A DNA stretch of 64,000 nt from Xiamenia xianingshaonis (GTDB taxonomy: Bacteria; Actinomycetota; Coriobacteriia; Coriobacteriales; Eggerthellaceae), in assembly GCF_017945865.1 (NCBI RefSeq), contig NZ_CP072829.1, forward strand, positions 248,001 through 312,000. The letters are read 5' to 3'. The notes beneath the pieces were generated by a model. The model saw only the letters and a list, made by a program, of their open reading frames with translations, did no database searches and was not told where the DNA came from. Each line of letters opens with the position of its first letter. Position 1 is the stretch's first letter. Below are positions 10,356-55,455 of this stretch, piece after piece. Made by a program: the position numbers and the translations under genes.

Positions 10356-12620
10356 GTGAAAGGGGTGCAGGTTGGCGCGCTGTACGTCGAGGTGCCCATG
10401 AGCCTGTTCACCATGCCCGAAGAGTTGGCGATCTTTGGACATGGCGGCTACTTCATCCTGTTCGAGGGCCGCACCGGCGAGGTGATCGGCCTTCCGAACC
10501 AGGCCCTGAAAACGCCGGTCGCCCCGGGGGATTCGGTTTTCGACTTTTTCGAGCGCGCGCAGATCGCCGACGTGGAGCAGGCCGATGCCGCCGGCAGCCT
10601 GTTCGCTTCGCTTCGCATCGGCGAGACGCCTGCTCCCAGCTGCTACGACGAGGTTCGCGCCTGGGCGGCCGATCGGGAGGTCGGCGCCGTGGGCACGGTC
10701 ATGGACGGCGTTCCCTGCTACGTGTCGGTGGCTCCTGTGCCGGGGTCCACCTGGACGGCGTGCAGCGTCATTCCCATCGCCAGCGTGCGCACCGAAGAGC
10801 CCGTCATAAACGTCATGTACGGCCTGGTCCTGCTCATCGTGGTGTTCAGCCTGGTGGCGGCCGGCGTGCTCACGTACATGCTTTTCCAGCGGCGCCTGCG
10901 CGCCAGCCACATAGCCATGGAGGAAAGCCTGTATGCGGCGCTGTCCGAATCCATCGACATGGCGGTCAACCTGTACTGCCCGGCCGACGGCACGACCACG
11001 CCCATCGTGGCGAAGGCGTCTGCCATCCTCGGGCATCCGCTGCAGGCGTTCATGGACGACCCGCGGCTTGCGCGCGCCGTCGACCTTTCTTCCGAGGGCC
11101 GCCTTATGCTGCAGCACATGCGCGAAGGCTCCATCAGCCAGCTCAACAAGGGCGAGTTTTCGCTGCGCAGCCCCGAAACCGGCCTGACCCGATGGGTCGT
11201 CTACACCGTCGAGCCGCTGAGCTTCGACGGGAAAGACCAGCTCATGCTGGTGATCCAGGACGTCACGACCGAACGCACCGTCCGCGAGTGCATGCGCGAG
11301 GCCATGGACGCCGCCGACGCCGCCAGCAACGCGAAGTCCGACTTCCTCTCGCGCATGAGCCACGACATCCGCACGCCCATGAACGTCATCATCGGCATGG
11401 TGCAGATCGCGCAAAACCCCTCAAGCGACGAGGCGAAGATGCGCGTGTGCCTGCAAAAGATCGGCATCGCGTCGAACCAGCTGCTCAACCTCATCAACGA
11501 GGTGCTCGATTTCTCGAAGATCGAAAGCGGGAAGATGGTGCTGGCCAGCAGCCCGTTTTCGCTGCGCGACATCGTGGACGGCGTGGCCAACGTCACGCGC
11601 ATCCAATGCGAGCAGAAGCGCCTGACGTTCCAGCTGACGTGCGAATACGACGGCATTGCGGCGTTCGAGGGGGACGCGGTGCGCGTGGAGCAAATGTTGA
11701 CTAATTTACTCACCAATGCGGTGAAGTACACCGACGAAGGAGGCCGGGTGTCGCTGTCGGTGCGCGTGCTGCCTGAAAAGGTCGCCGGGTACCGTCCGGT
11801 CGAGTTCGTGGTGGCGGACAACGGCATCGGCATGTCCGAGGAATTCCAGAAAAACCTGTTCGAGCCGTTTTCCATGGAGGGGCGGTCCCGCTCGCAGGGG
11901 ACGGGGCTGGGCATGTCCATCGTGAAGTCGGTGATCGTGCTGATGGGGGGCCTGATCACGGTCGACTCCAAAGAGAACGTGGGCTCGACGTTCCGCGTGC
12001 TCGTGAACATCCGCGTGGCGCCTTCCTCCGCGCTGCCTGCCAGCCCGGCGGACGATCTTGCCGCGCTGCGGCCGGTCGTGCTGCAGCCCTCGGAAGAAGC
12101 GCCTGCGGCAAAGGCCGAAGCGCCGAGCCCGGCCCTGCCGAAGCGTGCGGGGTCCGCTTCTGCGGCCGCCGCGTTGGAAGGGGGTGCCGCTGCGAAGCCT
12201 CCGGCGGACAAGGCGGCCGCCCGCCCGGGCGAGGGCATCCACGTGCTGGTCGTGGAAGACAGCGAGCTGAGCGCCGACATCGCCTGCGAGCTGCTGTCCA
12301 TGAAGGGCTTCACGTACGACTGCGCGCGCCAAGGCCAGGAGGCGGTCGACAAGTTCTGCTCCGCGCCGGAAGGCACCTACGACGTCATTCTCATGGACGT
12401 GCACATGCCGGTCGTGAACGGCTATGAAGCCACGCGGGCCATCCGCGCGTCGGGCCGGGGCGATGCGGAAAGCGTCGTCATCGTCGCCATGTCGGCCAAC
12501 GCGTTTACCGATGACGTGGCCGCCTCGCTCGAAAGCGGCATGGACGCGCACCTGTGCAAGCCCATGCGCATCGACAACGTCGTGAGCGTTGTGATCGAGC
12601 AGCTGGCGCTCAAAGGGTGA
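10356..12620 (+). CDS. Hybrid sensor histidine kinase, 3' part of split gene
   Basis: Continues the frame of the 5' fragment after the TAA codon: the rest of the Cache-like sensor, a second membrane helix (VMYGLVLLIVVFSLVAAGV), a PAS-like region, HisKA with phospho-His in MSHDIRTPMN, and an HATPase with N box NLLTNAVKY, G1 DNGIGMS and G2 GTGLGMS. A Pro/Ala linker leads to a C-terminal receiver with VVEDSE, the phospho-Asp in LMDVHMP and the Lys in CKPM. Translation might restart at GTG 10356 or ATG 10398, but the protein would then lack the first helix, so proper sensing is doubtful. The intact gene would encode about 911 residues. Confidence 0.8.
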   Translation: MKGVQVGALYVEVPMSLFTMPEELAIFGHGGYFILFEGRTGEVIGLPNQALKTPVAPGDSVFDFFERAQIADVEQADAAGSLFASLRIGETPAPSCYDEVRAWAADREVGAVGTVMDGVPCYVSVAPVPGSTWTACSVIPIASVRTEEPVINVMYGLVLLIVVFSLVAAGVLTYMLFQRRLRASHIAMEESLYAALSESIDMAVNLYCPADGTTTPIVAKASAILGHPLQAFMDDPRLARAVDLSSEGRLMLQHMREGSISQLNKGEFSLRSPETGLTRWVVYTVEPLSFDGKDQLMLVIQDVTTERTVRECMREAMDAADAASNAKSDFLSRMSHDIRTPMNVIIGMVQIAQNPSSDEAKMRVCLQKIGIASNQLLNLINEVLDFSKIESGKMVLASSPFSLRDIVDGVANVTRIQCEQKRLTFQLTCEYDGIAAFEGDAVRVEQMLTNLLTNAVKYTDEGGRVSLSVRVLPEKVAGYRPVEFVVADNGIGMSEEFQKNLFEPFSMEGRSRSQGTGLGMSIVKSVIVLMGGLITVDSKENVGSTFRVLVNIRVAPSSALPASPADDLAALRPVVLQPSEEAPAAKAEAPSPALPKRAGSASAAAALEGGAAAKPPADKAAARPGEGIHVLVVEDSELSADIACELLSMKGFTYDCARQGQEAVDKFCSAPEGTYDVILMDVHMPVVNGYEATRAIRASGRGDAESVVIVAMSANAFTDDVAASLESGMDAHLCKPMRIDNVVSVVIEQLALKG

Positions 12621-12624
12621 GGGG

Positions 12625-12641
12625 AGGGGCTGCCAGCCCCT
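12625..12641 (+). terminator. Possible terminator of the histidine kinase gene
   Basis: AGGGGC-TGCCA-GCCCCT forms a 6-bp stem, 4 bases after the stop codon, followed by the short pyrimidine run TCT. The T-run is weak, so this is a candidate only. Confidence 0.45.
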
Positions 12642-12853
12642 TCTGGTGGTCGCCCGTGAACAGTCCGTGCGGGTGACGTGGCTGTTTTATGGTGGGGGTT
12701 TCTTTGATGGTACAATTTAGTGTCGTTATATATGCAGTTTTGACGATATGGCGAAAACGCCGTCTTGAGGAGGACGAACGCTCGCCGTACCTTTTCCCCG
12801 ATCATGGGCCGGTTTAGCAAAGTGGGGAGCGCGGCTGGCCTTTAGGAGACTTT

Positions 12854-14482
12854 ATGACGCCAAAGAACTCTCGCTCTGGTCGCGTGGCGCGTTCGTCGCA
12901 CCAGTCGCAATCAGCGCGGGCCTCTCGCGTGGCCCAAGCTGCCCAGGCGGTGGACAATGGTTTCGAACAAGAAGCCCACCATGCGCGTCAGGCGGCGGCC
13001 AGCGCGAACAGCGAAAAGGCCCCCGTCGGCGCTTACACTCCTGTCTATCAGCCGGGAACCCAGAAGAGCGCTGCTGCAAACAAGGCTTTCGAGCGGCAGT
13101 CGGCCGTTTCCCAGTATTCTCGCAGCAATCCCGCCTATTCGCATCGCAAGACGTCGAAGGGGCGCAAGGTGCTCATCGGGCTGCTCATTGCCATAGTCGT
13201 GCTCGGCGTGGGCGCCACCGCGGCGTTCGCGCTCACGAATGCGTATCTGAACAGCATCAATGACAAGCTGAACACCGGCACGAAGTCGGCGGACGAAGTC
13301 CAGAAGATCATCGACACGCTCAAGCCGGCGCCGTCCGGCTTCGACGAGCCGTTCTACATGATTCTCATCGGGTCCGACGAACGCGAAGAAGACGCGTCCA
13401 TGGGCCAGCGCTCCGACACGAACATCGTCGTGCGGGTCGACGCGCCGAACAGCCAGCTGACGCTCGTGTCCATCCCGCGCGACACGAAGATCGAAATCGA
13501 CGGCTACGGCACGAACAAGTTCAACGCGGCGTACAGCTACGACGGAACGGCAGGGGTCATCAGGGAGGCCAGCCAGCTTCTGGGCGTCGACATCTCCCAC
13601 TACGCCGAGGTCGATTTCAGCCAGCTCGTCGACTTGGTGGACGCGGTCGGCGGCGTGGACGTGTACGTCGAAGAGCGCATTGACGACCCGGACGCCGACG
13701 GCACGTCCGCCAATCCCGATTGGGACCGCATCATTTTGGAGGTCGGCGAACACCACCTCAACGGCGATCAGGCCCTGTGCTTCGCTCGCAGCCGCGCCTT
13801 CGTCGACGGCGACTTCACGCGCACGAACAACCAACGCCAGCTCATCGAGGCCATCGTGGAAAAAGTGCTCGCCATGCCCGTGACCGAACTGCCCGGCGTC
13901 ATCGACAAGGCTGCCGCCTGCGTGTCGACCGACCTGACGGTCCAGGACATCATCACGCTTGCGCAGTACTTCTCCGAAGGCGACCTGACGATGTATTCGG
14001 CCATGGTGCCGTCATACACCCAGATGATCGGCGACGTTTCCTACGTCATCAACGACGAGGAGAAGACGAAGGAAATGATGGAGGTCGTCGATGCAGGCGG
14101 CGACCCGTCGGAGATCGTGTCCACCAAGACGGCGGACGATGCGGAAGAGGAGATCGATCCGCAGGCGTTCGAGGAATACGACGAGACGGCCTATAGCGAA
14201 ACGTACGATACGAGCAGCTACGCGACGGACGGGGGCTATACGGAGCCGTACGTCGATCCTTACGCGGGCGGCGGCTATGACACGGGCTATGTCGAGCCTG
14301 CCTATGTGCCGGAAGAGCCGGCGCCCTATGCGGACGGAGGAACTGGCGGCGCGGACGGCGGGTACGTCGATGCGGGCGCCGGCGCCGATGCAGGCGCTGC
14401 GGCTCCCGCTTCTGATACCGGAGCAGGTACCGATACCGGTGCGACCGGTGCCACCGGCGAGGCGCTTCCCGAGGCGGCATAA
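12854..14482 (+). CDS. LytR-CpsA-Psr (LCP) family cell-wall polymer ligase
   Basis: LCP proteins attach undecaprenyl-linked glycopolymers to peptidoglycan on the outside of the membrane. This one has 542 residues: a cytoplasmic Ser/Arg/Ala-rich tail of about 105 residues, one membrane helix (about 106-127), then the LCP domain (about 165-335) with ILIGSDERE, RSDTNIVVRV, the pyrophosphate-binding SIPRDTKIEI arginine motif, KFNAAYSY, and FARSR near the end. Residues about 400-542 are a Gly/Ala/Tyr/Asp-rich disordered extracellular tail that is unusually long. The ATG follows TTTAGGAGAC. It stands alone between terminators. The substrate polymer cannot be read from sequence. Confidence 0.92.
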   Translation: MTPKNSRSGRVARSSHQSQSARASRVAQAAQAVDNGFEQEAHHARQAAASANSEKAPVGAYTPVYQPGTQKSAAANKAFERQSAVSQYSRSNPAYSHRKTSKGRKVLIGLLIAIVVLGVGATAAFALTNAYLNSINDKLNTGTKSADEVQKIIDTLKPAPSGFDEPFYMILIGSDEREEDASMGQRSDTNIVVRVDAPNSQLTLVSIPRDTKIEIDGYGTNKFNAAYSYDGTAGVIREASQLLGVDISHYAEVDFSQLVDLVDAVGGVDVYVEERIDDPDADGTSANPDWDRIILEVGEHHLNGDQALCFARSRAFVDGDFTRTNNQRQLIEAIVEKVLAMPVTELPGVIDKAAACVSTDLTVQDIITLAQYFSEGDLTMYSAMVPSYTQMIGDVSYVINDEEKTKEMMEVVDAGGDPSEIVSTKTADDAEEEIDPQAFEEYDETAYSETYDTSSYATDGGYTEPYVDPYAGGGYDTGYVEPAYVPEEPAPYADGGTGGADGGYVDAGAGADAGAAAPASDTGAGTDTGATGATGEALPEAA

Positions 14483-44653: not shown

Positions 44654-45082
44654 ATGACTGAGACGAACGAGACTCCTGACGTTTTGGAAGCGCCGGAAGG
44701 CGACGGCCCGACCATGCTGCTGGCCGTGCCCACGATGGGCGCGGCGGGCATGGAAGCCCAGCGTGCGGGCCATTTTGGGCACTGCGACTGCTTTACGGTC
44801 GTCGACATTGCAAACGGTCAGCCGCAGGGCGTGCGCGAAGTGGCGAATCCGCCGCACGAGGAAGGCGGCTGCCTGCGCCCGGTGAAGCTGCTCGCCGACG
44901 AGGGCGTCAACGCCATCGTGGCCGCCGGCATGGGAATGCGTCCGCTCATGGGCTTCCAGCAGGCGGGCATCACGGTGTACTTCGACAACCAGCATCCCGT
45001 CGTGGGCGATGCGGTGAGCGCCGTCATTTCCGGTGAAGCTCCCGTCATGGGTTCTGACCAGGCCTGCAATCACCATCACTGA
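44654..45082 (+). CDS. NifX/NifB-type dinitrogenase iron-molybdenum cofactor domain protein
   Basis: 142 residues of the NifX/NafY-like (PF02579) fold: LLAVPTMGAAGMEAQRAGHFGHCDCFTVVDI at the N terminus has the H-F-G-x-(C) pattern, followed by the helix-loop VNAIVAAGMGMRPLMGFQQAGI and YFDNQHPVVGDAV. It ends CNHHH, a possible metal ligand. Such small proteins occur in many anaerobes without nitrogenase and are thought to bind Fe-S or other metal clusters. No nif gene is in the window, so its partner is unknown. It lies 104 bases after leuB and is followed by repeat copy C. Confidence 0.88.
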   Translation: MTETNETPDVLEAPEGDGPTMLLAVPTMGAAGMEAQRAGHFGHCDCFTVVDIANGQPQGVREVANPPHEEGGCLRPVKLLADEGVNAIVAAGMGMRPLMGFQQAGITVYFDNQHPVVGDAVSAVISGEAPVMGSDQACNHHH

Positions 45083-45299: not shown

Positions 45300-48023
45300 G
45301 TGAGGGAAGAACATGACAGGCAGGCGTATGCCCTCGGTTCGGGAGGCTTTTTTCTCGGCGTGAAGAAGTGCGTCCTTGACGAGGCGCTTCTTCCCGTTTC
45401 GGGGCAGCTTGGCGAGCCGGGCCGTTCGTTTGGCTGGGTGAGCCGCGGCCTGCCTCTGCCGCCGACGGGCGGGTCGTACGCGGTGGAGTTCGTCGACAAG
45501 TCGCACGTTTTCATCCTTGCCTACATCGATCCGTACGGCCGCGCCTTTTCGACGGAAAAGCCGCTGACCATTCCACCTGCCCGCGAGCCTGACCTGCTGT
45601 TTTCCAAGGATACGGCCGCCTCTCTCACCGGGCGGTCCAACGGCTTCGTGCGCATTCGCGAACAGCTTGGCGAAACGCGCGACGTGGCGCGGTTCTCCTG
45701 CGCGTCCAACGCCTACGAGCTGCTCGACAGTTGGTACGATTTCGGACGATACCGCGCCGGCCTGTCATACGAAGACGCGATGACCAGGGCTTACCTTGCC
45801 TTCGTGCATCGTCCGTCGCTCGGCTCCGTGCCGGTGCCGTCGGTCGGGCTGACCGAGGTGTATCGCTGCCTTGACAACGCGAGCTTCCTCGCAAGCGCCA
45901 AGAAGCTTCGCGACCTGTTCGACCGCGTGGGCGTCGATGCGGCGCTCGAGCCGCCGGCGCTTGCGGAAAGCCTCATGCGCTGGCTTGACGAAGCCGGCCT
46001 TCCCGGCGTGCTGGAGCTTGGCGCTTCGGACGCCGCGATCCGCCTGGTGCGCACGATGCGCTATGCGGGCACATTCTACCTGTCGCTCGAAGAAGACATC
46101 GGCGTGTCGCGCAAGACGATCTGGGCTTTGGAAGGCGCCCTCAACCGGTTTCTGCTGGCATGCGAGCGGCTGGACGCGCTGGCGACCCGGGCTGCCCGCG
46201 CGACGAAAGAGGAGATTTCCGCGTGCGACGAGGAACTGTTCGAAACGGCGGCCATCCAGTCTATTGCTGAGTTAAAAGCTCATGATTTCCCCGAGGCGAC
46301 GCCAGGCGGGGAGTGGGACGTGCGCTCCAAGCTGGGGCGGGCGGCAGAGCTGCTGCGGCTGCCGGTGCGCGTCGATGCGAAGTTTCGCTGCGACGTGGCA
46401 TCGGGCTTGGTGGCGCTTGACCTGACCGCGCCGGGGGCCGACCTGATGCCGGCGACGACGTGGATGTCGGACGACGACGGCGCGGCGGGCGGGCACGGCC
46501 TGTGGATGCCGGTTTCAACCGTCGCCCGCGAGGCGCAGGCGGAGCGCTACGCTTTTCACCTGGGCCTTTTGCTTGCAGCGAAGGCATTCGAGGCGTCGCC
46601 GTCCATTGACCGGGTCGAACTGGCGGTGCGCTTCCTCGGCGAAGAGGACAGCGACTTGCACGACGGCGGGCTGCTGAGCGCGCCGATGTTTCCCGCGTAC
46701 GCTACGGTCGGCCTTTCGCGCGCGGCCTTCGAGGAAACCGACGGCTTCGCTTTCGCGCGGGCAAGCGACCCGCAGTCTTTTTTCCGGGAGGCCGGCGCCC
46801 GGCACTTCCCCGACGCCATCGGCTCGTTCGTGTCGGTTCTGGTCCTGCCGAGCGCCAAGCTGCGCAGAGAGCTGCCCGAAATCGGCAAAGTACCGCTGTC
46901 GGGATTCGCGGCGCAAGCCCTTGGCGTGGACGATTCGACCGGCATGCGCATCAACTTCGACGCGGCGCTGCGCCGGCGCGGCGAGGACATCGCCGACGGC
47001 GTGGCGCAAACGACGAGCGCGTCTGCGGCCATTCGCGTGGTGCGCCAGGCGCAGGACGCGGCGCAGGCCGACTTTGACGAGCGGGCGATAAACGGATGCA
47101 CGCGCCTTATGGCCGCGCTTGCGGAAGGCAAGATAGACTGCGAAGACCAAAACGCCGTCGTCAGCTGCTTTTTGGGGGCGGACCGCTGCCTCACGGCGCT
47201 GGGACGTGCGAAAACGTTCGCTGAAAACGATGACGTCTCCCAGGCGGTGGCCGTCTTGCAGGAGGCCATCGCCGAGGCCGAAGCGCTCGAAGGCTTCGTC
47301 GACACGTCGTTGAACGCCCGCCGTGCGTTCGATTCGTATTCGTCGCGCGTCATTTACAACCTGGCGCGTCGCGGGGACCTTCCCGACCCGCAGGCGGTCC
47401 GAAACGACCAGTCCAAGTACGTCGAGCTGGTGCCCGATTCGTTCTATCTGTGCCATTTGGAAGTGGTGCGGATGCTCGAGCATTCTTTCGAGCGGTCGGA
47501 AGAGGCGGTCGAGTACGGCCGGCGCAGCATTGCGATAGCCCCTACGGCCGGCGCGGGGTACCGGCAGCTCGGACGCGCCTACATGCTGATGGGCGACATG
47601 GAAAACGCCGCGCAGGTGCTGGAGGAATGCTTGCGCATCGCCGTGCAGCCCAACGACATCGCGATGGCGTACTACCAGCTGGCCTACGTGCTGTGGAAGC
47701 TGGGTCGGGCCGAGGCAGGCGCGGCGTGCTATGCGAAATCGCTGGCGACGGCGCCGGTCATGGCCATGCAGGCGACGATCGAGCTGCACGAGCTGGTCGA
47801 AGAAACGGGGCTGCCGCTGCCCGACCAGGACAAGGTGGACGACACCCTCGTGCGTCTTGGCGTGCCGCTCGCCCCGTCGAAGGCCGTGCTCGATGCGCTT
47901 GAGCGGGCCTGCGTCGCCGCCGTGGATGCGGGGCTGTTCCCCGTCGCACAGAGCATTCTGGCGACTCGGCTGCGCTACCGGCCCGACGACGCTTTGGTGA
48001 ACGTGCTGCGGTCGCTGGATTAG
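45300..48023 (+). CDS. Large TPR-repeat protein of unknown function
   Basis: 907 residues, GTG start 8 bases after AAGGA. Not recognised beyond its C-terminal tetratricopeptide repeats (about 700-905): YRQLGRAYMLMGDMENAAQVLEECLRIA and AMAYYQLAYVLWKLGRAEAGAACYAKSLATAP are clear TPRs. The first 250 residues are a separate mixed alpha/beta region (RSFGWVSRGLPLPPTGGSYAVEFVDKSHVFI), and the middle is helical with no motif I know. No signal peptide, so cytoplasmic. It lies between repeat copies C and D and carries no neighbours of known function. A scaffold or assembly role is only a guess. Confidence 0.7.
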   Translation: MREEHDRQAYALGSGGFFLGVKKCVLDEALLPVSGQLGEPGRSFGWVSRGLPLPPTGGSYAVEFVDKSHVFILAYIDPYGRAFSTEKPLTIPPAREPDLLFSKDTAASLTGRSNGFVRIREQLGETRDVARFSCASNAYELLDSWYDFGRYRAGLSYEDAMTRAYLAFVHRPSLGSVPVPSVGLTEVYRCLDNASFLASAKKLRDLFDRVGVDAALEPPALAESLMRWLDEAGLPGVLELGASDAAIRLVRTMRYAGTFYLSLEEDIGVSRKTIWALEGALNRFLLACERLDALATRAARATKEEISACDEELFETAAIQSIAELKAHDFPEATPGGEWDVRSKLGRAAELLRLPVRVDAKFRCDVASGLVALDLTAPGADLMPATTWMSDDDGAAGGHGLWMPVSTVAREAQAERYAFHLGLLLAAKAFEASPSIDRVELAVRFLGEEDSDLHDGGLLSAPMFPAYATVGLSRAAFEETDGFAFARASDPQSFFREAGARHFPDAIGSFVSVLVLPSAKLRRELPEIGKVPLSGFAAQALGVDDSTGMRINFDAALRRRGEDIADGVAQTTSASAAIRVVRQAQDAAQADFDERAINGCTRLMAALAEGKIDCEDQNAVVSCFLGADRCLTALGRAKTFAENDDVSQAVAVLQEAIAEAEALEGFVDTSLNARRAFDSYSSRVIYNLARRGDLPDPQAVRNDQSKYVELVPDSFYLCHLEVVRMLEHSFERSEEAVEYGRRSIAIAPTAGAGYRQLGRAYMLMGDMENAAQVLEECLRIAVQPNDIAMAYYQLAYVLWKLGRAEAGAACYAKSLATAPVMAMQATIELHELVEETGLPLPDQDKVDDTLVRLGVPLAPSKAVLDALERACVAAVDAGLFPVAQSILATRLRYRPDDALVNVLRSLD

Positions 48024-48242: not shown

Positions 48243-49121
48243 TTACATCGGAGCCATGTCCAGGCGCAATCTGGCGTGCCTGTCGTCGTCGGTGTTCTCG
48301 GCGCGCCACCTGAGCATGGCCGCCAGGTCCTTCCCGTCGCGGGGAAGCACCCCTTCTATCCTGAAGAGGTTCGTGTCGTGCCCGGAAACCACGACGGTCT
48401 CGCAGCGCAGGTTCTCTACGAACGTCGCCGCTTCGTTGATGATCTCCGATTCGGGCGCGAGCTCAAACGAGCCGTCCAAGACTTCTTCCCGCAGCTTCGT
48501 GCCGGGGAAAGGCGTCATCGTGGTGATGAAGATCTTGGCCGGATGCAGCTTGCTGAAGACCTCTGCGGAACGAAGCGCGTTTTCGTGGCACTTGCCTTTT
48601 CCGGCCATGCCGCAGAGATAGAACAGGACGTATGTGATGCCGGCCTTTTCCAGCCGTGGAAGGTTGTCCAGGAGGTCTTGGGTCGTGTGGTCCTTTTCCA
48701 TGCGCTCAAGCGCCTCGTCCCAGCCGCTCTCGGCTCCGATGGTTGCCTTGAGCGGTCCGTACTGCGCCATTTCCCGCAGGTCTTCGTCGCTTTTCCGCTT
48801 CACGCTGGCGGTGGTCATGAAGCCCGATATTCCCTTGGCGGTCGGAAGCTTCTCCCTGATGAGCTTCAAGATCGGTATCAGCTTGCTGTTGGGCAGCCCC
48901 ATCGGGTCCTCGGAAAGGAGCATCACCGACTTCGGGTTTCGCACCGTGGCGGCTATCTCTTCGATGTCTTCGACGACGTGCTCCATCGGCACGGCCTGGA
49001 ACTGGGCGTTTCCGTGCAGGCTGCAGAAATGGCACTTCCCGTAGGAGCATCCGACGGTTATTTGCAGCAGCTCCGCAGCCATTCCGTCAGGACCTCTCCT
49101 CGCGATTTGCGGCGTGTGCAT
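48243..49121 (-). CDS. Radical SAM protein of unknown substrate
   Basis: 292 residues. The cluster motif CSYGKCHFC (Cx3Cx2C) lies near residue 28, followed by VMLLSEDPMG, IGAESGWDEALERM and YVLFYLCGMAGKGKCHENA, a pattern of Elp3/MiaB-like anaerobic radical SAM proteins of the 'B12-independent' group. No auxiliary cluster is obvious at the C terminus. The ATG at 49121 follows AGAAGGAGG. Its start region faces the palindrome at 49143-49159. It lies beside the AAA/methyltransferase operon on the same strand, 81 bases downstream of it. Reaction and substrate are unknown. Confidence 0.85.
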   Translation of the reverse strand: MHTPQIARRGPDGMAAELLQITVGCSYGKCHFCSLHGNAQFQAVPMEHVVEDIEEIAATVRNPKSVMLLSEDPMGLPNSKLIPILKLIREKLPTAKGISGFMTTASVKRKSDEDLREMAQYGPLKATIGAESGWDEALERMEKDHTTQDLLDNLPRLEKAGITYVLFYLCGMAGKGKCHENALRSAEVFSKLHPAKIFITTMTPFPGTKLREEVLDGSFELAPESEIINEAATFVENLRCETVVVSGHDTNLFRIEGVLPRDGKDLAAMLRWRAENTDDDRHARLRLDMAPM

Positions 49122-49202: not shown

Positions 49203-51515
49203 CTATTTCTTGCGGACGTAGAGGCTGACGGCCTTGTATGCGACGTCCTCGACGTCGGGCACCGCCTCCACCGTTTCCCCGGCCTTGTAGCCAAGGTTGG
49301 CCGCCACCTCGTATTCGTCGACCACGGTCGGAGCGTCGAATCCCGCGGCTTCAAGCCAGGCCAGGTTCTCGTCTTCGGTCCTGGCGGCCTGGATGCTGTT
49401 GCCGATCTCGCGCGCGGCCTCGACCACCGCGTCGTCGCGCTCGCGGTCGGCGAAGACCGTCTCCAGGATCAGGAGGCCTCCGGACTTCAGCACCCGTCCG
49501 AATTCGCGGAGGGCGGCTTGCTGGTCGTAGAACAGCGTGACGACGTTGTTCACGTACAGGACGTCCATCGTCGAGGTGCCGATGCCGGCGGAGATCAGGT
49601 CCTCGGGATAGGCGACGTGGAACTCCATGTTGTTGCCCTTCAAGCCGCTGTCGTGCCACGCGCGGCTGATCCCTTCTGCGGCCTCTTGGACGTACGAGGG
49701 GCTCCAGTCGATGCCGATGGCGCGGCCGTCGTTGCCCACCATGCTGCTTATCTTGTAGACGCCGCGGCCCCTTCTGCTTCCCACGTCCAGCACCTTTTTC
49801 CCTTTGAGGTCGCTTGCCGGCAGAAGCATCTTGCAGACCGAGGCGAACCCGTATTCGAACTGCTTGTTCGCATAGTGGTCGGCGAGCGCTTGGCTGTCGA
49901 GAGCGGGGCCGGCCGAGACGGGCCGACCTGCGCCTCTCGCTTTGAGGCCGACCGCCTGCGACACGTCGACGGACGGCCCTTCGAGCACGTCGGGGACGTC
50001 GTCGTCCAGCGAGGACAGCTTCTCGGCGCGCTCGTCGAGGTTCGCGCGCGCCTGGTCGACCTTGAGGGTCTCGTTGTGCTGGTAGTAGCTCTCGTTTCCG
50101 TAGTGGGAGACGAACTGGGTCGTCGCGTTGCGCGTCGTGAGCTCGGCCATGAAGACGAGCATTTCCCGCTGTCCCATCGTCTCGTCCACGAAGCGGAAGG
50201 CGGCGTCCATCTTCGCGCTGGCGGCGCTGGCCTTCGGCCGGATGGCGCCCACTTCCTTTTGGTAGGCCGACCGGATGGTTTCGAAGGCGGGCTCGCCTGC
50301 CGGCATGTCCTGCAGCGTGCATTCGGCAAGGAACGTCCGCAGAAGCTGGATCAACGTCCGCTCGCGGCGGATCTTTGCCGTGGGCGTCGTGCCGGCCTCT
50401 ATCTTGCGTGCGAGGTCTTCTTCGCGCCTTTCGATCTGCGCTCCAAGCACCGCATCGGCGAAGGCGCCTGCAAGCAGCTCTTCTTTGGCCGAGCGCAGCA
50501 CGTCCCTCAGCTCAAGGCAGATCTTTTCGATCCTGAGCACCTCGGCGCACTCGTTTCCGAGCGCGTCCAGCAAAAGCCCGAGCAGCGCCACCCGCTCGTC
50601 GAAGGCGGCCTCGACCGCCCGCTGCTTGATGGCGTCGCTCGCCTGGCCGGCCAAGATGGCGTCGACCTGGTAGTCGCTGCGGTACTTCTGGAACAGCGTG
50701 TAATAGACGCTGAACTGGTCGCAGATGTCGTCGTCTCGCAGGAACTGCGCGAACAGGTCGCGGTCGGCCGGCACTTCCATCCGCTCGTAGAGCGCAAGCA
50801 GCTCGGACAGGTCTTCCCAGCCGCGCGCGGTCACGAACGACTTGCCGCCGCCCGGCTTGCCCTCCACCTTGTAGAAGCAGTCCTTCTTGGCGTCCAAAAA
50901 CGTGACGACGGCGGGGTGCAGGCCCTTTTCGAGGGCGTAGGCGTGCCAGGAGGCGTAGTCGGGCACGACGTCGATCTCGCGCAGCCGGTCGAGCGTGACG
51001 ATGTCGAACTCGTGGACGCTGCGGTTGTATTCCAGCGGGTTGCCGGCGCACACGACGACCCACCCGGCAGGCACCTTGTGCTTGCCGAACGTCTTGTACT
51101 GCAGGAACTGCAGCATGCTCGGGTACAGCGTTTCGCTCACGCAGTTGATCTCGTCGAGGAACAGGATCCCGTCGCGCAGCCCCGTGCGCTCCCGGTAGTC
51201 GTAGATCGCGGCGATGATCTCGCTCATCGTGTACTCCGAGATCTCGACGTCCAGCCCGTCGAACGAGCGCTGCTCGATGCGCGGCAGGCCGAGGGCGCTT
51301 TGCCGCGTGTGGTGCGTCATGGAATAGGACACCAGCCCGATGCCCAGCTCCGATGCGATCTGCTCCATGATCGCCGTCTTGCCGATGCCGGGCGCCCCCA
51401 TGAGGAACACGGGGCGCTGGTGCACGGGGTCTATCGCGTACAGGCCGGTCTCGTCGCGCATGAGATACGCCCGCACGGTATCGGTGATCTGCTGTTTTGC
51501 CTGGGTAATGTTCAT
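49203..51515 (-). CDS. MoxR-type AAA+ ATPase fused to a SAM methyltransferase domain
   Basis: 770 residues. N-terminal AAA+ module: Walker A GAPGIGKT (40-47), Walker B ILFLDE (117-122), sensor 1 CAGNP (157-161) and LDRLREI, the MoxR/RavA-like pattern. A helical region follows, about 190-520. Residues about 530-770 are a class I methyltransferase: motif I VLDVGSRRGRGVYK (about 575), GIDWSPSYV, and FGRVLKSGGLLILE. It is closest in look to arsenite-methyltransferase-type domains, but the SNCVINL-position cysteine reads NNVVTL, so arsenic chemistry is unlikely. The ATG at 51515 overlaps the VWA stop (ATGA). ATPase-methyltransferase fusion is unusual for MoxR proteins. Confidence 0.85.
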   Translation of the reverse strand: MNITQAKQQITDTVRAYLMRDETGLYAIDPVHQRPVFLMGAPGIGKTAIMEQIASELGIGLVSYSMTHHTRQSALGLPRIEQRSFDGLDVEISEYTMSEIIAAIYDYRERTGLRDGILFLDEINCVSETLYPSMLQFLQYKTFGKHKVPAGWVVVCAGNPLEYNRSVHEFDIVTLDRLREIDVVPDYASWHAYALEKGLHPAVVTFLDAKKDCFYKVEGKPGGGKSFVTARGWEDLSELLALYERMEVPADRDLFAQFLRDDDICDQFSVYYTLFQKYRSDYQVDAILAGQASDAIKQRAVEAAFDERVALLGLLLDALGNECAEVLRIEKICLELRDVLRSAKEELLAGAFADAVLGAQIERREEDLARKIEAGTTPTAKIRRERTLIQLLRTFLAECTLQDMPAGEPAFETIRSAYQKEVGAIRPKASAASAKMDAAFRFVDETMGQREMLVFMAELTTRNATTQFVSHYGNESYYQHNETLKVDQARANLDERAEKLSSLDDDVPDVLEGPSVDVSQAVGLKARGAGRPVSAGPALDSQALADHYANKQFEYGFASVCKMLLPASDLKGKKVLDVGSRRGRGVYKISSMVGNDGRAIGIDWSPSYVQEAAEGISRAWHDSGLKGNNMEFHVAYPEDLISAGIGTSTMDVLYVNNVVTLFYDQQAALREFGRVLKSGGLLILETVFADRERDDAVVEAAREIGNSIQAARTEDENLAWLEAAGFDAPTVVDEYEVAANLGYKAGETVEAVPDVEDVAYKAVSLYVRKK

Positions 51516-53152
51516 GCTCGTCCTTTCAATGACGTCTCGTCGATGATCAGCTTTGTCGCCCACGGAGGCACCGAGGGCACGTCGCGGGACTCGTCGTTCA
51601 GGAACACGAACGCCGCGTCGAACCTCGGCGCGCTTTCCGGGAAGGTCCCCAGCCCGTCGGTGAAGTACACGAGGCCCTTCAGGTCGGCCAGCCTTCCGTC
51701 TTCCACCATGGCTCCCACGTGGTCGAAGACGGGGCGGAAGTCCGTGCCGCCGAATCCGCGGATCTGCAGGCGCTCCATGAAGGCATCGACGTCCTTGAGG
51801 TCTTTGATGACCATCTCTTGCTGTATGCGGTTGTCCGCTTGGATCACGTGGATGTTCACCCGGCTCGCGAATTCGCTGGACTCCTTCAAAATGTCGAAGG
51901 TGTGCTCGATGAAGCGGCGCACGAGCTCGCCTTTGACGCTTTCGGACGTGTCGATCGCGATGACGAAGTCGCGCACGCGGTCGGTTTCTTTGTATTCCAA
52001 CGGCTCTATCAGCGGCGTTTTGCCGTAAAGCTCCATCCCGTAGGAATAGAAGGCGTAGTCGAACTCTTCGGGATTGACGAGGATTTCTTCGCTTTGCACG
52101 GCGAAGCTGCGCAGGAACTCGGAATAGTCGTAGCGCTTGCGGTTCGCCAAAGCCAGGATGCCGATGAAGCTGGACGTTCCGTCGCCCCATTCGTTGCCGA
52201 AGGCGCTCAGCTCCATCTCGATCTGCTTGGAGACGTCCTCCCAGTCCCGCTCGTCCTGCTCTGCTTGGGCGGACTGTTTGAAGTTGGTCAGCGGGTCGTC
52301 CGCCTGCGCCTGCTCGGCCCCGGAGGCTTCTTGCTCCCCGTCGGTTCCGGCCGTCTCTTCAAGGCTGCCTGCGCTGCTGTCGGCGCCTTCTTGTTCACGC
52401 TCGTCGCCGGAGAGGTCCCGCCCGTCGTCAAGCCCTTCGACCGAGGGCTGCGGATCGTCGCCCGAGGCTTCGAGGCCGCTTGGCGGATCGTCGGGGTCTT
52501 CGTCGTCTTGAGAGGTCCCGTTGCTGAGCCCTTCGTCGGACGGGCTTCCCTGGCTGTTCATCGAAGGCCATGCGGCGTGTTCGTCGCGCTCGAACAGGGC
52601 GTGCCAGTCGGCGAGCACTTCGCGCCGAAGGCCGCGGTATGCCCGCCCGTCCGGGCATTCCACGAGGTTGTGGACAAGCTCGTAAACCTTCGAAGGCAGC
52701 AGGTCGCCCACCATCATGCGGATCGTGTCGAGCTGGCCTCGCCGTTCTGTGTCGTCGGCGCTCGGGAACCTTCTTGAGCACAGGTCCATCGCCACGCTTT
52801 CGGCCATTACGTCGCAGGTCAGGCTCCACGCTTCGAAGTCGTCGTGGTCGCGGTCGTAGGGGTGCTTGAACAGGCAGTGCAAGGTCATGTGGAGGTAGTC
52901 CCGGATGCTCTCGTTGAAGTCCTGCCGGTATCGGGCGACGACGCGGGGCGGGTCGTAGGCGATGCCCGACCCGTTCGTGGCGAGGGGATACCGCGCCCCG
53001 GACCTCAGAGGAACGAGCTCCATGCGCCAAAGCGCGAGATCGAGAAAGCGGAACTTGAGCATAAGTTGTGCGCGGCACTCATCGATGATGTCTTTGCCCA
53101 ACGAATCTTCTTCGAGCCTGCGCCTGAGCTTTTCGTCCATTGCTTTTTGCAT
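51512..53152 (-). CDS. DUF2201/VWA-domain protein, partner of the MoxR ATPase
   Basis: 546 residues. The N-terminal half is the putative metallopeptidase-like domain (DUF2201) with LHMTLHCLFKHP, a degenerate H-x3-H motif. An acidic, disordered stretch (about 200-300: DDEDPDDPPSGLEASGDDP...) follows, then a VWA domain with the complete MIDAS: IDTSESVKG (DxSxS), GGTDFRPVF (Thr) and YFTDGLG (Asp). MoxR ATPases usually act with VWA proteins in assembling or inserting metal cofactors into target complexes. AGGAGG overlaps the end of the LRR gene, whose stop is 8 bases upstream; its own stop overlaps the ATPase start. Confidence 0.88.
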   Translation of the reverse strand: MQKAMDEKLRRRLEEDSLGKDIIDECRAQLMLKFRFLDLALWRMELVPLRSGARYPLATNGSGIAYDPPRVVARYRQDFNESIRDYLHMTLHCLFKHPYDRDHDDFEAWSLTCDVMAESVAMDLCSRRFPSADDTERRGQLDTIRMMVGDLLPSKVYELVHNLVECPDGRAYRGLRREVLADWHALFERDEHAAWPSMNSQGSPSDEGLSNGTSQDDEDPDDPPSGLEASGDDPQPSVEGLDDGRDLSGDEREQEGADSSAGSLEETAGTDGEQEASGAEQAQADDPLTNFKQSAQAEQDERDWEDVSKQIEMELSAFGNEWGDGTSSFIGILALANRKRYDYSEFLRSFAVQSEEILVNPEEFDYAFYSYGMELYGKTPLIEPLEYKETDRVRDFVIAIDTSESVKGELVRRFIEHTFDILKESSEFASRVNIHVIQADNRIQQEMVIKDLKDVDAFMERLQIRGFGGTDFRPVFDHVGAMVEDGRLADLKGLVYFTDGLGTFPESAPRFDAAFVFLNDESRDVPSVPPWATKLIIDETSLKGRA

Positions 53153-53160
53153 GGGGCCTC

Positions 53161-55455
53161 CTATAGGCTGAAGTCCAGCGCTTCGTCGCATTGCCCGAAC
53201 CAGCGGCGGCGCATTTCAAGCAGGTGCGCCGTCATCGCGGCGTCTCTGACTGAGGCGATCCTGTCAATGACCGAGGCGATGTTCTCTTCGGTCAGAAAGC
53301 CGAGGTTTGCCAGGTCGTCCAAGGCGAGGCGGTCGCCGCAGCTTGACAAGGCTTTGCATATGTCCACAAGGTGGTCCTCGATCGCGCGCGTGATCATCTG
53401 GCGGTTCGCCGGGGTCATGAAAAGCGGGTCTTTGAGCCGGTCCATCATGAGCTTCGCCTGCTCGTACAGGCCCATGCCCTCATCTTTCAACGCGAGGTTG
53501 AAGGAGCTGGCGTTCATGATGGCGGCGTCGTAGTTTTCAAAGAGGTTGGGAAGCTCGAGCCCCGCCGCCGAGGTGAACGCGACGTATTGCTGGTGCCTGC
53601 CCCGGTCGGTGTCGGGGAAGCGTATGGTGAAATGGTCGTGGCCGCCGATCGGCTCGACCAGGTCGATGCGAATCGTCTCTATCAGCCCCTCGACGGAGAA
53701 AGCCCTGATGCCGACGTCGCTTATTCCGTTCAAGACCCGAAGCCGGCGCATTGCGCGAGAGCTGGCGAACGCGTACGGCGCGATCGATTTCACGGCGTCA
53801 GGAATGTAGACGTCCTCTTCGGTGTCGGTGAAGGCGATGACGGCGAGGCTTCCGTCGTTTTTGCGTTCAAGCAGCATCCCGCTTTCCACGGAGAAGCGCC
53901 GGTTGTCCTTTGACACCTCGACGTCTCTGAGCGACTGCGCGGCGCGTCCGCTGTGGACCCCTTGCGTGACCAGCGCCATCGATCCGATGTGCGCGAGGCT
54001 TGCAGGCAGGTGCAGCGCCTCGATGTTCGAGTCAAGAAACGCTTCCTCGCCGATGGAGACGAGGCCTTCCGGCAGATTGACGCTCCTGAGGCTCTTGCAC
54101 CCTTTGAACGCCGCTTCGCCGATGGAGGCAAGGCCGGCGGGAAGGACGACGGTCTCGAGGCAGCGGTGGTTGAACGCGGCCTGCGGCTCGATGGCAACCG
54201 TGCCGCAGGCTACGACGAGCGTCGTCGCGTCGGGGTCCATGACGCGCTCGAGGTGGAGCCCGTCGGCGCACCTGCGGTAGAGCCCGCCGTGCGCGTCAAG
54301 GCTCAGCACGCCGCCCTCTTCGATGGAAATAGCCTGGTCAGACGCAGTAAAGCGGATGTTTGTGCCCTCTGCGACGGGGTGGTTCATGGCCTTGAGGCTT
54401 GCGGGGAAGCGAAGATGCGCCAGCGCCGTGTCCGAGAAGGCGTTCGCCCCCACGTATTCCAAGCCATCGCCCAAAAGCACGCGCTCGAGCTTTCTGCAGT
54501 TGAAGAAGGCTCGCTCCCGGACGTCTCTCAGCTGCGCCGGCGCCGTGAACTCGCGGATGGCCGTATGGGCGAACGCGTAGCTTCCGATCGACGCTATCGA
54601 ATCGGGCAGGTCGACGCGTGCAAGGGTGCTGTGCCGGTTGAACGCTTTTGAGCAGATGATCCTGCAGCCAGGGGCTATGCGGTATTCGTCCTGATGCACC
54701 GCAAGCCCGACCAGGGCTTTCCGCCCTTTCGTGTACAAGGCCAGCCCGTCCGTTTCGAGGAAGGCGTTTTCAGGGTCGACCGAGAGCGCTTCAAGGCGGC
54801 TTTTGCCGAACGCGCCCGGAGCCGCACAGGTCGTGCCGGCGCCAACGACCAGGGTCTTCAGGGAAGGGGCCTCGAAAACGGAGGGGGTTATTTCTTCAAG
54901 CAGGCCGGGAAGCGTCAGTTCCTCCAGGTGCGAGCAGCCGCGAAACCAGCCGGGGTCGAAGCTTGCCATGCGGGAAGGCAGCGCGACGCGGCGCAGGTTC
55001 GAGCAGTTGTAAAAGACGCCGCTTCCGAGGGAAAGGACGGAATCCGGCAGGACGGCCGCGCGCGCTTCGCGAAGCCCGCTGCAGGCCCTGTTCGCCAAAG
55101 CGACGACGGGCTTTCCTTCGACGGCGGAAGGAACGAGCAGGTCGGCCGCCGTCGAATCGCACGCCAGAAGGCGGACCGCGCACTCGTCGAGGACCGTGTA
55201 GCGCCAGACGCTCCCCGTCCCGTCGGCCCACTCGCGCTCTTCCGATTCGCGGGCGGCGTCGAACGACTGGGCGCGGTCGCGGACCGCGTCTCGCTCGCGA
55301 TCGATTTTGTGCAGGTGCTCAATTTGGGCGGCTGACCATAGGCCGCCTTTTGCCTGGTCGGCGTGGTCGGAATGTTCTGACTTGTCCGGCGAATACCATT
55401 TGCCGAATTCGTGGGCCAGCTCGTTGTTGGAGGCGAGTTGCAGAAGTTCTTTCAT
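53161..55455 (-). CDS. Cytoplasmic BspA-type leucine-rich-repeat protein
   Basis: 764 residues and no signal peptide. About a dozen LRR_5 (BspA-like) repeats between residues about 100 and 560, with the pattern L..V.LP..L..IG..AF..C..L (VALPSRMASFDPGWFRGCSHLEELTLP; VVLPAGLASIGEAAFKGCKSLRSVNLPEGLVSIGEEAF). An N-terminal 80-residue helical, charged part and a C-terminal helical part of about 150 residues (AAMTAHLLEMRRRWFG...) frame the repeats. LRR_5 proteins are mostly secreted adhesins, so a cytoplasmic one in an operon with a VWA/MoxR pair is suggestive of a recognition role. First gene of the operon. The ribosome site is weak. Confidence 0.85.
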   Translation of the reverse strand: MKELLQLASNNELAHEFGKWYSPDKSEHSDHADQAKGGLWSAAQIEHLHKIDRERDAVRDRAQSFDAARESEEREWADGTGSVWRYTVLDECAVRLLACDSTAADLLVPSAVEGKPVVALANRACSGLREARAAVLPDSVLSLGSGVFYNCSNLRRVALPSRMASFDPGWFRGCSHLEELTLPGLLEEITPSVFEAPSLKTLVVGAGTTCAAPGAFGKSRLEALSVDPENAFLETDGLALYTKGRKALVGLAVHQDEYRIAPGCRIICSKAFNRHSTLARVDLPDSIASIGSYAFAHTAIREFTAPAQLRDVRERAFFNCRKLERVLLGDGLEYVGANAFSDTALAHLRFPASLKAMNHPVAEGTNIRFTASDQAISIEEGGVLSLDAHGGLYRRCADGLHLERVMDPDATTLVVACGTVAIEPQAAFNHRCLETVVLPAGLASIGEAAFKGCKSLRSVNLPEGLVSIGEEAFLDSNIEALHLPASLAHIGSMALVTQGVHSGRAAQSLRDVEVSKDNRRFSVESGMLLERKNDGSLAVIAFTDTEEDVYIPDAVKSIAPYAFASSRAMRRLRVLNGISDVGIRAFSVEGLIETIRIDLVEPIGGHDHFTIRFPDTDRGRHQQYVAFTSAAGLELPNLFENYDAAIMNASSFNLALKDEGMGLYEQAKLMMDRLKDPLFMTPANRQMITRAIEDHLVDICKALSSCGDRLALDDLANLGFLTEENIASVIDRIASVRDAAMTAHLLEMRRRWFGQCDEALDFSL

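Follow-up and report, generated by a model that had tools for sequence, protein, structure and literature searches.

Gene Organization of the Locus

The window analyzed here, i.e., the whole stretch of DNA under study, spans 64,000 nucleotides of Xiamenia xianingshaonis, a member of the family Eggerthellaceae with a genome of 2.26 Mb. Three genes lie together on its minus strand, and a check of their ORFs, gaps and start codons reproduced the layout given in the preliminary description. The first gene (53161..55455) encodes a BspA-type leucine-rich repeat (LRR) protein of 764 aa (Pfam LRR_5, E 1.1e-55), the second (51512..53152) a VWA/DUF2201 protein of 546 aa (Pfam DUF2201 VWA-like, E 4e-13) and the third (49203..51515) a single polypeptide of 770 aa, hereafter MoxR-MT, matching both AAA_5 (E 6e-7) and Methyltransf_31 (E 3e-15). 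The MoxR-type AAA+ ATPase domain covers aa 1-500 of this protein (50016..51515, minus strand) and a methyltransferase-like (MT) domain forms its C terminus from about aa 541 (49203..49895, minus strand). The LRR and VWA genes are spaced by 8 bases, and the VWA stop codon and the MoxR start share 4 bases (ATGA).

A radical SAM gene (48243..49121, minus strand, ATG at 49121; Pfam Radical_SAM, E 6.7e-17) follows MoxR-MT, as also noted earlier, after a gap of about 80 bases and with its own AGGAGG-like ribosome site, and is likely the last gene of the operon. Its relatives adjoin the MT-fused trio in both copies carried by genome G136, and are found near the trio in G066 and G068. A promoter scan of the locus found no sigma-70-like site and terminators did not exceed those of shuffled sequences, so that gene spacing is the sole argument for an operon.

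Within the window, the neighbors of the trio are amino-acid biosynthesis genes. An 887-aa TPR protein is encoded at 45360-48023, convergent with the radical SAM gene, and the same position is kept in G136. Near the trio, on the opposite strand, positions 44654-45082 encode a small Nitro_FeMo-Co domain protein (E 1.3e-18), for which a metal-cofactor link is possible and whose proximity may also be due to chance.

Conserved Features of the Three Proteins

The VWA domain lies in the C-terminal part of the second protein and carries the MIDAS segments DTSES, GGTDF and YFTDG; each of the D, S, S, T and D residues is invariant in 79/79 relatives, which bears out the intact MIDAS first read from the single sequence. 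The N-terminal half had been called metallopeptidase-like, and this does not hold for an active enzyme: the DUF2201_N match is below the Pfam threshold (E 0.0024), the HExxH motif is changed to HxxxH, and the catalytic Glu occupies position 2 in none of the 77 readable relatives, making this half a pseudo-metallopeptidase at best. Three His (HxxxHCxFxHP) and a downstream D...E are retained. The nearest named relative is that of Slackia sp. ZJ119 (90% identical); a contig scan with the single VWA protein as query recovered one Slackia relative, and a structure prediction from two sequences reached a mean pLDDT of 43. As for the LRR protein, a family alignment (n=56) showed that its C-terminal helical part (about aa 640-764) is conserved alongside the LRR block. 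Its designation as cytoplasmic is based on a signal sequence not being evident by eye. We propose this protein as the client-recognition subunit.

The ATPase of the window has intact Walker A (GAPGIGKTA), Walker B (LFLDEIN), sensor 1 and Arg finger motifs. Among 82 relatives, Walker A GAPGIGKTA is found in 75, Walker B LFLDEIN/VN in 81, sensor 1 GNP in 81 and the Arg finger DR[LMVI] in all.

The fusion of MoxR and a methyltransferase in one polypeptide was confirmed, while the description of the fused part as a plain methyltransferase was not. In the arsenite methyltransferases ArsM, three Cys bind arsenite. Among solved structures, these enzymes are closest to the MT domain (PDB 8xt7, 4kw7, 5evj; E 2e-15 to 3e-13), and MT differs from them by its RRGKG loop and by the loss of two Cys: the first of the arsenite-binding positions is retained in 31/46 members, and the other two are substituted in nearly all. 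With two of the three positions missing, an arsenic-related function was discarded. In place of GxGxG, all 46 readable members have an RRG[KRM]G-like motif I (longer pattern, [CG][CS]RRG[KR]G) in which Arg replaces one Gly, and all of them retain an acidic residue after strand 2 (D in 44, E in 2). As the SAM loop is rewritten to RRGKG, methyl transfer by the MT domain can be regarded as no more than putative.

Distribution of the Trio and Its Link to a Molybdopterin Enzyme Cassette

The LRR-VWA-MoxR trio recurs across the Eggerthellaceae, so that the three genes do co-occur in other genomes, and it exists both with and, often, without the MT domain. The open-licence papers searched contained no earlier account of an LRR-VWA-MoxR(-MT) trio. 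The MoxR domain is present in 102 of the 138 family genomes and, in a search of 246 genomes across the phylum, strong MoxR matches were confined to the Eggerthellaceae; the VWA protein is also present in other families of the order (Coriobacteriales).

A codon-based script was used to call genes in about 140 loci; these calls are uncurated, and many of the assemblies are draft. Recurrent upstream of the MT-fused trio is a cassette comprising Mop, a molybdopterin enzyme of about 770 aa, and three small proteins, c4 (119 aa), c5 (about 91 aa) and c6 (about 111 aa), around which genes for trigger factor (TF), FKBP and trigger-factor-C are frequent. Of the MT-fused loci, 32 have a contig reaching at least about 5 kb upstream, and in 27 of these one or more of c4, c5 and c6 are found upstream of LRR, c6 mostly at about 4.1 kb from the MoxR start; those without them are the window, its orthologue in G136, L060, L072 and L153. 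The MT-fused trio (39 genomes) and c4 (38 genomes) occur together in 31 of 138 genomes (Fisher p 6.6e-17) and, at the genus level, are shared by 13 genera, of 14 and 16 (p 3.7e-8), both p values ignoring shared descent. Eight genomes have the fused trio with no c4 match, most of them likely owing to fragmented assemblies, and G041 is divergent. Seven genomes (G058, G061, G067, G069, G076, G086, G087) carry c4/Mop and no fused trio, which implies that the trio is not strictly required or that a paralogous trio substitutes for it.

The same parts are also found in other arrangements. In G058, which has no trio, a free MT gene stands in the series Mop-c4-c5-c6-MT-FKBP; G066, G069 and G086 show the arrangement Mop-Fd, regulator, LRR-VWA-MoxR-TF-MT, with an unfused MT and another Mop. 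G304, a genome from a different family within the order, has its fused trio beside Mop, Fd and FKBP genes, and the Fe-S cysteines are present there. This recurrence of the same parts around Mop enzymes, fused or unfused, is the main argument for a functional link. For the MT-less trios of the other main MoxR clade, a Mop gene was found within 8 kb in only 4/42 loci; the idea that every LRR-VWA-MoxR trio serves Mop enzymes was therefore dropped, and the trio appears to be a platform more general than its Mop client.

In a quick MoxR tree, in which two divergent fused rows were left unplaced, 37 of the 39 MT-fused MoxR proteins fall within one clade of 44. Of the seven rows in it that show MoxR alone, two are cut at a contig or locus end and the other five form one sub-clade (L075-L079) in which MT is gone and the trio retained, a topology that fits about one fusion event and about one loss of MT. 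The neighbors of the fused clade are unfused Mop-linked trios (e.g., G066, G069, G086), and the window copy groups within the Mop-linked clade. Most family genomes also carry MT-less trio paralogues beside recN, mfd (both named by eye) and other non-Mop genes; the second trio of the window genome (L003 6620-12332, G000:C1 about 2.218-2.224 Mb) is MT-less, with a divergent LRR gene, and trios of this type are often found next to recN- or mfd-like genes in other genomes. Two further loci are of note by eye. A divergent MT-fused trio (L072 14273-19632, in G091) adjoins HypD/HypF-like hydrogenase maturation genes, possibly pointing to another metalloenzyme client. The MT-less trio of the fused clade at L076 15008-19806 (G125) adjoins a radical SAM gene as well as the gene for a large protein similar to a 2-hydroxyacyl-CoA dehydratase activator.

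The window genome encodes its own cassette (Mop, c4, c5, c6, FKBP and TF) at G000:C1 about 1.99-2.00 Mb, 1.7 Mb from the trio; within L123 (G000:C1 1987000-2006900), Mop occupies 11963-14245 and c4 11583-11942, both on the minus strand. Two MT-fused loci occur in G136: one is orthologous to that of the window, and the other (76% identical), apparently partly decayed, retains c6 upstream and the radical SAM gene downstream, which links the window type to the Mop type. Together with the distant cassette, this makes the window trio look like a copy that moved off a cassette. Three TF genes are present in the window genome (G000:C1 905903, 1995761 and 1559868), two of which match above the family cut-off and one of which is inside the Mop cassette, so that the cassette TF is an extra paralogue. 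A transporter of the aromatic-acid/H+ symport type is encoded near this cassette.

The Presumed Client Mop

The N-terminal Cys of Mop are replaced (PPGSHPVGYGV...RVNAMNLA vs. PPGCHPVGCGL...RLCVRCIA in the paralogues), and c4, a ferredoxin-like subunit, is left with 2 cysteines vs. 8-10 in ferredoxin-type homologues. Retained in Mop are the MGD domain and the Cys of the SG[WY][SA]CY region, which aligns with the tungsten-ligand Cys region of acetylene hydratase. In acetylene hydratase, the Cys of that region is the tungsten ligand. This enzyme is the nearest solved structure to Mop (PDB 2e7z, E 3e-68) and has also been reported as a relative of the catechol dehydroxylases (PMC7028382). Mop shares with both the metal-ligand-region Cys and the MGD domain, and differs from them in that Mop and its ferredoxin-like subunit lack the Fe-S cysteines, a loss which suggests non-redox chemistry. 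The Mop of the window genome was identified at 92% identity, and the 78-98% identity of orthologues between genera indicates strong selection on this protein.

Discussion

We consider it probable, judging from the sequences and their conserved neighborhoods, that the trio works as a MoxR-VWA chaperone dedicated to maturing or activating a metalloenzyme, and that the client of its MT-fused form is the cluster-free Mop with c4-c6. Gene order, the ATPase and MIDAS motifs, the Mop-c4-c5-c6/TF/FKBP linkage, the co-occurrence and the mostly single fusion clade come from sequence; that Mop would be the client in the window genome as well is inferred from sequence and gene context.

Related machines have been characterized. 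CoxD (MoxR-type) and CoxE (VWA) mature the molybdoenzyme CO dehydrogenase (PMC4240915); like the trio, they pair an AAA+ MoxR-type chaperone with a VWA protein for a molybdoenzyme, but their client is of the xanthine-oxidase type (Mo-Cu), whereas the presumed client of the trio is of the bis-MGD type, and neither an LRR protein nor an MT domain is present there. In the NorQ/NorD system, NO reductase receives its iron through NorQD, with NorQ exerting a twist on the linker of NorD (PMC13036017). The trio resembles it in having adjacent genes for a MoxR-type ATPase and a MIDAS VWA protein, with relatives linked to a presumed client metalloenzyme (PMC9976466, PMC13036017), and differs in adding an LRR protein, a DUF2201-type VWA with a pseudo-metallopeptidase half and an MT-like fusion, and in its client.

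By analogy with these two systems, a mechanism in four steps can be envisaged. The cassette TF paralogue and the FKBP isomerase would help apo-Mop to fold. Apo-Mop would then be recognized by the LRR protein and docked onto the VWA protein, whose MIDAS would grip a client peptide, while the His-rich pseudo-metallopeptidase half may serve as a holding site for metal or cofactor. ATP hydrolysis by a MoxR hexamer would twist or pull the VWA linker and open the client, allowing the Mo/W-bis-MGD center to be inserted or its ligand sphere to be finished. In the weakest step, the MT-like domain tethered to the motor may act on, or bind, the client or cofactor at this opening.

The trio could alternatively be a general remodeling platform for many clients, whose window copy now serves another metalloenzyme or a radical SAM-dependent modification. 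The MT-less paralogues beside recN, mfd and non-Mop genes in most family genomes speak for this reading, as does the window copy itself, with its adjacent radical SAM gene and its distance from Mop. We nevertheless regard it as the less likely explanation, since most genera show linkage of the MT-fused clade to the Mop cassette, and the window genome still encodes the cassette, with a highly similar Mop, while its trio copy groups inside the Mop-linked clade. The trio had originally been suggested to be a machine that recognizes, remodels and methylates a target. Recognition and remodeling fit the conserved trio; methylation is called into question by the altered SAM loop. Such a machine, in which MoxR-VWA would expose a residue or cofactor group for the fused domain to methylate with SAM, agrees with the recognizable class I methyltransferase domain closest to arsenite methyltransferases, with the acidic residue kept after strand 2 in 46/46 members and with the conservation of MT in 37 members of one fused clade. 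The RRGKG-like loop in every readable member, the replacement of two of the three arsenite-binding Cys and the absence of MT from a sub-clade that retains the trio make it doubtful.

Of the three options initially left open (cofactor maturation, protein modification or defense), the genome context favors metalloenzyme or cofactor maturation and disfavors defense. MoxR-vWA cores do serve in biological-conflict systems, where vWA-MoxR ternary systems share with the trio a three-component core (PMC7159879), LRR proteins could act as sensors, and a weak bpMoxR match was obtained (E 1e-4, 21.9 bits vs. the 27-bit cut-off). An anti-phage or conflict role of this ternary kind is nonetheless very improbable: the third component of the trio is outside the four known for those systems, effectors are lacking and the context is metabolic. 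PADLOC gave 0 matches for the VWA, LRR and radical SAM proteins and only weak generic methyltransferase/AAA matches for MoxR-MT, a Pfam scan of the trio and the neighborhoods detected no VMAP, iSTAND, FtsH or beta-propeller partner, and no effector turnover was seen, the window neighbors being biosynthetic and the relatives being located in a metabolic cassette.

Returning to the dedicated Mop chaperone, we can speculate, with little confidence, that MT, rather than being a methyltransferase, is a fold put to new use: its RRGKG loop would bind bis-MGD, a phosphate-rich pterin cofactor, or a different nucleotide. Motor, LRR recognition and cofactor delivery would then be united in one complex loading an Fe-S-stripped, probably non-redox Mo/W enzyme. 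Such an arrangement, if true, would define a new class of AAA+ machines for cofactor handling.

The clients of MoxR-VWA systems are known in few cases, and a motor, co-chaperone and recognition subunit together with a presumed client offer a concrete, testable pair. The presumed client is itself an odd one: the molybdopterin enzyme is strongly conserved, yet neither it nor its ferredoxin-like subunit has the Fe-S cysteines. For the gut Eggerthellaceae, a group that includes catechol-transforming enzymes, little is known about how bis-MGD enzymes are assembled, and it is to this process that the trio would probably belong.
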